In this document: positions 20,914 through 29,295 of the stretch, piece by piece
How positions within the stretch are numbered: position 1 is the stretch's first letter
Layout: each line of letters opens with the position of its first letter
Assembly: GCF_016464385.1 (NCBI RefSeq)
Contig: NZ_JADMLH010000012.1
Coordinates: forward strand, 1 to 64,000
Source of the DNA: Nucisporomicrobium flavum
GTDB taxonomy: Bacteria; Actinomycetota; Actinomycetes; Mycobacteriales; Micromonosporaceae
DNA length: 64,000 bases
Direction of reading: 5' to 3'
Translations under genes and position numbers: made by a program
Notes under the pieces: generated by a model
Told to the model about the DNA's origin: nothing
The model's input: the letters and a program-made list of their open reading frames with translations, nothing else
Database searches by the model: none

Positions 20914-21118
20914 GGGCCTCCTCCATGTCGTTCTGCCCCTTCCCTGCACTGACGCCGAAAGGGAACCGAAGGTTCGCGGGCGGCCGGGGTGTCCGTGGGC
21001 CTCCGGCGCCGCCGCCCGTTCCTGACAGGTTAGCCCGGTCACAGCAAGTCGCCGAGTAGGGCGTTAAGGCCTATCACGTCGCGTGGTCAACCAGACACGC
21101 ATATCGGATGGGTTACGA

Positions 21119-21210
21119 ATGAACCTTTTCAACGTGGCGAGGTCGGCAGCACCCGCCGCCGGTCCGCGGACCGGGGCTGTCAGGCTCAATGCCAGGTTGA
21201 AAAGGTTCAT
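21119..21210. repeat. 92-bp nested inverted repeat (candidate MITE or structured element)
   Basis: Perfect 15-bp terminal inverted repeats ATGAACCTTTTCAAC (21119-21133) and GTTGAAAAGGTTCAT (21196-21210) flank a 62-bp core centred on the perfect 16-bp palindrome CCGGTCCGCGGACCGG (21159-21174). Further complementary blocks (TGGC/GCCA, GAG/CTC, GGCAGC/GCTGTC) lie between, so the whole element can fold into one long stem. It is bounded on both sides by the trinucleotide CGA (21116-21118 and 21211-21213), like a 3-bp target duplication. Confidence 0.75.
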
Positions 21211-21254
21211 CGAAGGACGGGTGATACCGGTCGCCGCGCCCGGAGCGGGGCGAG

Positions 21255-21266: not shown

Positions 21267-21296
21267 ATGGCCCGCGCCTTCCTGCTTCTTATCTAG
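21267..21296 (+). CDS. Leucine-rich leader peptide of leuS (MARAFLLLI)
   Basis: Nine codons ending CTG CTT CTT ATC TAG. Three consecutive leucine codons, two of them CTT, which is rare in such GC-rich DNA, make ribosome speed sensitive to charged tRNA-Leu. The stop is followed directly by an extended stem and then a rho-independent terminator before leuS. That is the arrangement of classical transcription attenuators. Comparative work has predicted such attenuators before leuS in some Streptomyces; I infer the same here. Confidence 0.75.
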
Positions 21297-21361
21297 CCGC
21301 GCCGTCGTCCCCGAGGACGACGACAAGCGCGGCGCCCCCTCCTGCCGAAGGGGGCTTTTTT
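21297..21361 (+). promoter_or_regulatory. leuS attenuator: pause/antiterminator stem and terminator
   Basis: First structure: CCGCGC (21297-21302) pairs with GCGCGG (21327-21332), and CGTCGTCC (21303-21310) pairs with GGACGACG (21315-21322). Second structure: GCCCCCT (21334-21340) pairs with AGGGGGC (21349-21355), followed by six T (21356-21361), a textbook intrinsic terminator and one of the few U-tract terminators in this window. Stalling in the Leu codons would change folding of the first stem and decide termination before leuS. Confidence 0.8.
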
Positions 21362-29109: not shown

Positions 29110-29278
29110 ACCACACAGCACGTGAACAACCACAAAGGCATACGGGGGCAGGGACGGGGGACCCAATTCCGGTCCGCTGCGAGCCACCTCGGCCCGCACG
29201 ACCTTGGGGTGAAGCCGCCACCTGGCGGCCGGGCACACCTTCCCGCCCGAACCCGACAGCTAACCTCGCAGGCGTGCC
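29110..29278 (+). ncRNA. c-di-AMP (ydaO/yuaA) riboswitch
   Basis: The three conserved blocks of the class are present in order: GGGGGACCCAA (29156-29166), TTGGGGTGAA (29204-29213) and the hallmark CCCGAACCCGACAGCTAACC running on to CTCGCAGGCG (29246-29275). The 5' limit is approximate. It lies immediately before the ribosome-binding site of an NlpC/P60 hydrolase. ydaO riboswitches are known to bind cyclic di-AMP and in actinobacteria commonly precede cell-wall hydrolase genes. Confidence 0.88.
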
Positions 29279-29295
29279 GGAGGGATATCTCTACC

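Follow-up and report, generated by a model that had tools for sequence, protein, structure and literature searches.

The intergenic region between moxR and leuS in Nucisporomicrobium flavum raises the question of what a 92-bp nested inverted repeat is doing upstream of leuS. The first-pass annotation left three options side by side, a miniature transposable element, a structured RNA or a large operator. We addressed them starting from the first 64,000 nucleotides of contig NZ_JADMLH010000012.1 (assembly GCF_016464385.1), referred to below as the window.

The palindromic element occupies positions 21119–21210 on the minus strand and was delimited by its inverted repeats, by a covariance-model match and by its absence at the orthologous site of relatives. 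It is bounded, as annotated, by perfect 15-bp inverted repeats: the left arm ATGAACCTTTTCAAC at 21119–21133 (plus strand) and the same 15 bases on the minus strand at 21196–21210, the arms reaching 20 nt at 95% when extended. With up to three mismatches allowed, the arm pattern matched only these two sites in the 64-kb window, while 0.08 matches were expected by chance. The element core TGAACC...GGTTCA (21120–21209, family orientation on the minus strand) matched the covariance model with 87.7 bits. The annotated 16-bp inner palindrome CCGGTCCGCGGACCGG (21159–21174, no strand) is present as well, but it did not recur in the 11 other own-genome copies aligned and is unique to the window copy among them; in the alignments the centre is the variable part of the repeat family. 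The 111-nt stretch around the element folded with −62.2 kcal/mol (z = −7.0; none of 200 shuffles reached this value), and the opposite strand of the same stretch with −53.1 kcal/mol (z = −5.6). The palindrome in the window is real and not a matter of local chance.

When the own genome (9.02 Mb, 50 contigs) was searched by BLAST with the 111-bp region, the check that the first-pass annotation had proposed, ten other long matches with 75–84% identity were returned. A covariance model built from 12 own copies gave 25 matches in this genome at 14 distinct places, 11 of the matches being opposite-strand duplicates of others. Within the genus, the model matched in 30 of 67 genomes (E ≤ 0.001), with some places counted on both strands in the per-genome numbers; the element is therefore not the single copy with no conservation that would have spoken for a chance structure. 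An even draw of 250 genomes of the bacterial family yielded matches in 31 (E ≤ 1e-5), of which 27 belong to the own genus, and the matches were confined to 3 of the 44 genera. A pattern scan of named genomes found 38 stretches in Mangrovihabitans, Pseudosporangium, Actinoplanes and Paractinoplanes species plus one Pseudonocardia, whose displayed sequence runs from the first arm just into the centre.

For comparison of individual copies we used 91 sequences, 14 from the own genome and 77 from ten relatives, the latter among the matches listed. Three short or diverged copies (L014, L097 and L098) were excluded from the pairing and frame counts. The remaining 88 full-length copies measured 90–93 nt, with arms of about 15–20 bp and no gene inside. 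The 20 copies read from genome G019 have a median identity of about 95%, medians being computed from at most 60 pairs per genome. Most copies of the G051 and G017 set (L168–L185), which forms a subfamily, have TGAGC...GGCTCA, a joint change of the two ends, and at locus L280 (G019:C1:1020500-1023500, about 1455–1695) two shortened copies lie about 80 bp apart in opposite orientation.

The moxR-side comparison comprised 30 loci including the own one, drawn from a larger number of matches. In an arm-motif search, 29 of 29 relatives lacked the element's pair of arms; one of these loci (L105) contained one small unrelated palindrome. Where the gap was displayed, for nine relatives, eight of them with leuS adjoining, the element was present in none. 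Genome G010, the closest of these with 98.8% identity to the window on the moxR side, is cleanly empty here and reads TTACGAATGGTGGACGGG where the window has TTACGAATGAACC...GGTTCATCGAAGGACGGG, and the window copy is therefore an insertion.

Empty sites were likewise found for three other copies of the own genome, as given here with the element in brackets. Between recO and uppS (30 loci from a larger match set), all 29 relatives read lack an element end in the 30 bases preceding uppS, and G010 has CAGTGACACG compared with CAG[TGAACC...GTTCA]GTGACACG in the own genome. The sites at the 3′ end of an ABC-permease gene and between deoR and galT (12 loci each, from larger sets) were each empty in 11 of 11 relatives read; here G010 has GGACCTACTTGACC compared with GGACTAC[TGAACC...GTTCA]CTTGACC, and CTCAGTGATC compared with CTCAG[TGAACC...GTTCA]GTGATTG. 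Two own copies, L003 and L008, do recur in G010 at the corresponding gene junctions (as L146 and L147), so that the family turns over, yet not every copy is new. Dispersed copies, empty sites and a recurrent target support the transposable option of the first-pass annotation, and the window palindrome is very probably one copy of a non-autonomous, palindromic, MITE-like insertion element of about 92 bp.

The element is preferentially flanked by CA before and TG after it, which indicates a CANTG-like target. The bases on either side of the element were identical in 60 of 91 copies compared with 26.5 expected, and 10,000 permutations reached a maximum of 42. This one-base duplication was seen in 10 of 14 own copies and in G019 (20/20), G021 (9/12), G051 (9/11), G017 (4/7) and G005 (4/6), and was low in G059 (2/12), G031 (0/3), G034 (0/2), G010 (1/2) and G022 (1/2). 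The 31 copies without an equal flank base comprised 15 with an A/G difference, 9 with apparently no duplication and 7 others. The window copy and seven copies of G059 are among these nine. As in the window copy, the right flank begins with T in 7 of 12 copies of the G059 set (L186–L197) and a duplicated base is lacking; these copies are perhaps a subfamily with a different cut. As the TG and CA on the element side are near-invariant while the bases on the flank side vary, the duplicated unit is one base and not three or five. A 5-bp CANTG or a 3-bp ANT duplication was rejected: the flank-side positions deviate in 20, 12, 25 and 38 of 91 copies and the corresponding element-side positions in 2, 5, 0 and 0, and at copy L002 the empty site TACTT gave flanks of TAC and CTT.

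The window copy itself has no visible one-base duplication. It does carry CGA at both flanks, as had been annotated, but the reading of this triplet as a 3-bp target duplication was not supported. Among the eight relatives with the conserved left block, six read ACGAATC at the insertion point (G010, with AATG, is an exception to AATC), so that CGAA|TCGAA is probably an old target split in two. From the relatives' sequences, this old target would have been CGAATCGAA, split without duplication.

The position of the copies relative to genes was inspected by eye in the own genome. The TGA of the element ends the flanking frame in 6 of 14 copies (L002, L003, L008, L009, L011 and L097), and in 7 of 14 (L003, L004, L005, L008, L009, L010 and L011) the base directly following the element can be the first of a downstream gene. 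Either a stop or a start was found at the junction in 9 of 14 copies, and neither in the window copy (L001), L006, L007, L014 and L098. An automatic count gave an exact stop or start in 28 of 91 copies, which is a low estimate since it missed L002–L004, which visual inspection puts at a stop or start. Several copies are not at stop/start junctions at all.

The empty sites show how such junctions are entered. At recO-uppS, deoR-galT and the ABC-permease 3′ end, the TGA of the element is the neighbour's stop codon; on the strand of the permease gene, the stop TAG is replaced by the element's TGA. The start codon of the next gene was kept after insertion at both recO-uppS and deoR-galT. With a stop/start overlap such as CAGTGA as target, the first TGA of the element becomes the upstream stop and the downstream start codon is kept. 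According to Pfam, the neighbours include NmrA-like, FcoT, zinc alcohol dehydrogenase, histidine kinase plus response regulator (with L008 located between the two), DeoR plus GalT, and RecO plus prenyltransferase proteins; an amidohydrolase before L003 fell below the Pfam cut-off. Selection for an open frame through the element was rejected, as the frame was open in 78 of 88 copies compared with 75.2 expected from composition, i.e., without excess.

Among known systems, bacterial MITEs share with the present family the short, gene-free body, the terminal inverted repeats, the dispersal and the empty sites in relatives. The family differs from them in having one duplicated base or none, a CANTG-like target and no parent insertion sequence seen at the places viewed; target duplications of MITEs usually measure 2–10 bp. 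The mycobacterial MIRUs, the original paper on which reportedly dates from 1997, resemble the family in their sites. As far as the available text of the source goes, MIRUs insert at start codons, their internal frame being coupled to the gene by a −4 nt overlap, which probably limits harm (PMC12548453). In the accessible part of another report, 77-bp and 53-bp MIRUs lie between the sensor kinase and regulator genes senX3 and regX3, three in a row in one strain (PMC4213456). MIRUs are described in these portions as short repeats placed at start codons, and between a sensor kinase and its regulator; part of the copies here lie in such sites, with L008 as a close parallel. The present family differs by its near-perfect terminal palindrome, its TGA...TCA ends and the several copies off stop/start junctions; the window copy, unlike MIRU-style sites, neither abuts a start codon nor supplies a stop.

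The best reading is that the MITE-like element works like mycobacterial MIRUs. Shared descent with them, beyond a shared way of working, would be suggested by the same style of site, an NTGA stop/start overlap with a small frame that crosses the element and abuts the following start, and by L008 lying between histidine kinase and response regulator as the MIRUs are described to do in the excerpted account of senX3-regX3. We nevertheless regard true homology as very unlikely; the share of copies with an open frame across the element does not exceed that predicted from composition (see the counts above).

Under the MITE-like reading, an enzyme encoded elsewhere would recognise the terminal arms, cut the target at its central base or one base apart around it, and then insert the element. 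Insertions into gene junctions would survive because the ends are codon-compatible, and not because the element serves the host. It is possible, though we hold it only tentatively, that the family represents an undescribed class of mobile DNA, whose enzyme cuts CA-N-TG with a stagger of one base or zero and whose codon-safe TGA...TCA ends colonise coupled gene junctions, replacing the stop and sparing the start. A search by title or abstract start, mostly outside subscription literature, found no prior description of the family, and searching the arm sequences as literature text found no paper. The family is not mentioned in the accessible portions of a MITE review (PMC10969869), of the Actinoplanes SE50/110 genome paper (PMC3364876) and of PMC4255298.

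An autonomous partner, in which such ends would enclose a transposase gene, was sought at 14 end-like places of G019 and G051 (about 200 bases each) and not seen; these places were complete, short or truncated copies, or chance matches. A different mobiliser would be a RAYT (Y1, HUH) transposase moving a REP/BIME-type palindrome as single-stranded DNA. The short, imperfect, dispersed palindrome with a conserved C-C mismatch at columns 16/77 resembles such repeats, and several carriers do have Y1 transposases (G047, 8 matches; G031, 6; G022, 4; G059, 2; the own genome, a partial one). Y1_Tnp was found in 21 of 67 genus genomes, yet five of the carriers with many element matches (G019, G021, G051, G017 and G018) had no Y1_Tnp match, while G037 had five without any element match. 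As Y1 transposases do not track the copies across the 67 genomes, which also sets the family apart from REP/BIME and RAYT systems, this explanation was rejected and is highly improbable.

The remaining option was a transcribed hairpin acting either as a structured RNA or as the cis-regulatory leader of a gene such as leuS. The very stable fold on both strands, the position upstream of the leuS attenuator, and some coordinated changes in the arms (e.g., at column pair 4-89, where AT has become GC in 18 of 88 copies), which would also fit a role of the folded strand, speak for it. Two copies common to G031 and G022, which are 91/92 and 89/92 identical and thus conserved as well as their flanks or better, count against the insertion-element reading. 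Across copies, pairing of the terminal arms is good. In the covariance analysis that had been proposed as a check, however, pairing in the consensus fold was 0.826 compared with 0.8225 after within-genome reshuffling, a value reached by 18 of 500 reshufflings, and RNAalifold on the 12 own copies found a double change in 1 of 26 pairs. The copies adjoin unrelated genes, and the element is missing from all 29 of the relatives' moxR-side loci compared. The two copies common to the own genome and G010 (L003/L146 and L008/L147) are 85/92 and 76/92 identical, with 278–286 of 300 identical bases in the 300-base flanks, and thus diverge about as fast as, or faster than, their surroundings. There was no Rfam match at gathering score at the element, the window's sole match lying elsewhere.

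With variable centres, pairing barely above the reshuffled level and G010-shared copies diverging like their flanks or faster, an RNA function is not supported, and neither is a large operator, given the same pairing values and the empty loci in all 29 relatives. We rejected a regulatory RNA on the pairing counts, the turnover and the absence at orthologous sites, and the chance of such a role is slight. The fold of the element gave no sign of a host function. Elsewhere in the window, Rfam identified a c-di-AMP (ydaO/yuaA) riboswitch at 29121–29289 (plus strand, 61.7 bits), upstream of a frame for a secreted protein whose C-terminus we take to be NlpC/P60-like.

At its own locus, the element lies between the likely start of moxR (about 20913, minus strand) and that of leuS (about 21407 or 21416). 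On the plus strand, a conserved block GTCAACCAGACACGCATATCGGATGGGTTACGAA at 21086–21119, a possible promoter region found in 9 of 30 moxR-side loci including the own one, ends at the insertion point. A second block, TGATACCGGTCGC at 21222–21234 (plus strand), follows on the far side and recurs with small changes in 8 of the 9 relatives displayed, the exception being L109. The insertion thus falls between the block ending TTACGAAT and the block TGATACCGG. Further downstream, the sequence and the relatives' loci point to a leuS leader peptide, MARAFLLLI*, at 21267–21296 (plus strand), kept as MARAFLLL or MARSFLLL in the eight relatives that retain the left block; the leader motif was found in 12 of 30 moxR-side loci. 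A terminator-like hairpin followed by a T run, the putative leuS attenuator, is predicted at 21334–21355 (plus strand). Over 21267–21355 (plus strand), the leader with its three leucines is followed by a large hairpin and then by the terminator-like hairpin, an arrangement conserved in the nearest relatives. Attenuators of leuS with leader peptides have been predicted in Streptomyces, according to the accessible part of the source (PMC1262725).

The first-pass annotation had correctly placed the element upstream of the leuS leader. As judged from these sequence comparisons, the insertion separates two conserved blocks upstream of an apparently intact leuS leader-peptide attenuator. Depending on the location of the promoter, the window copy would either ride along in the leuS transcript as a passenger hairpin at its 5′ end or act as a spacer separating parts of the promoter.

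For leuS regulation in this strain, the big hairpin is to be read as an insertion outside the conserved attenuator. More generally, the empty sites show that a small mobile element can enter operon junctions and leave both neighbour genes intact, which would give the strategy proposed for MIRUs a second actinobacterial example. Given the missing enzyme and the unusual duplication of one base, the mobiliser is a concrete target.
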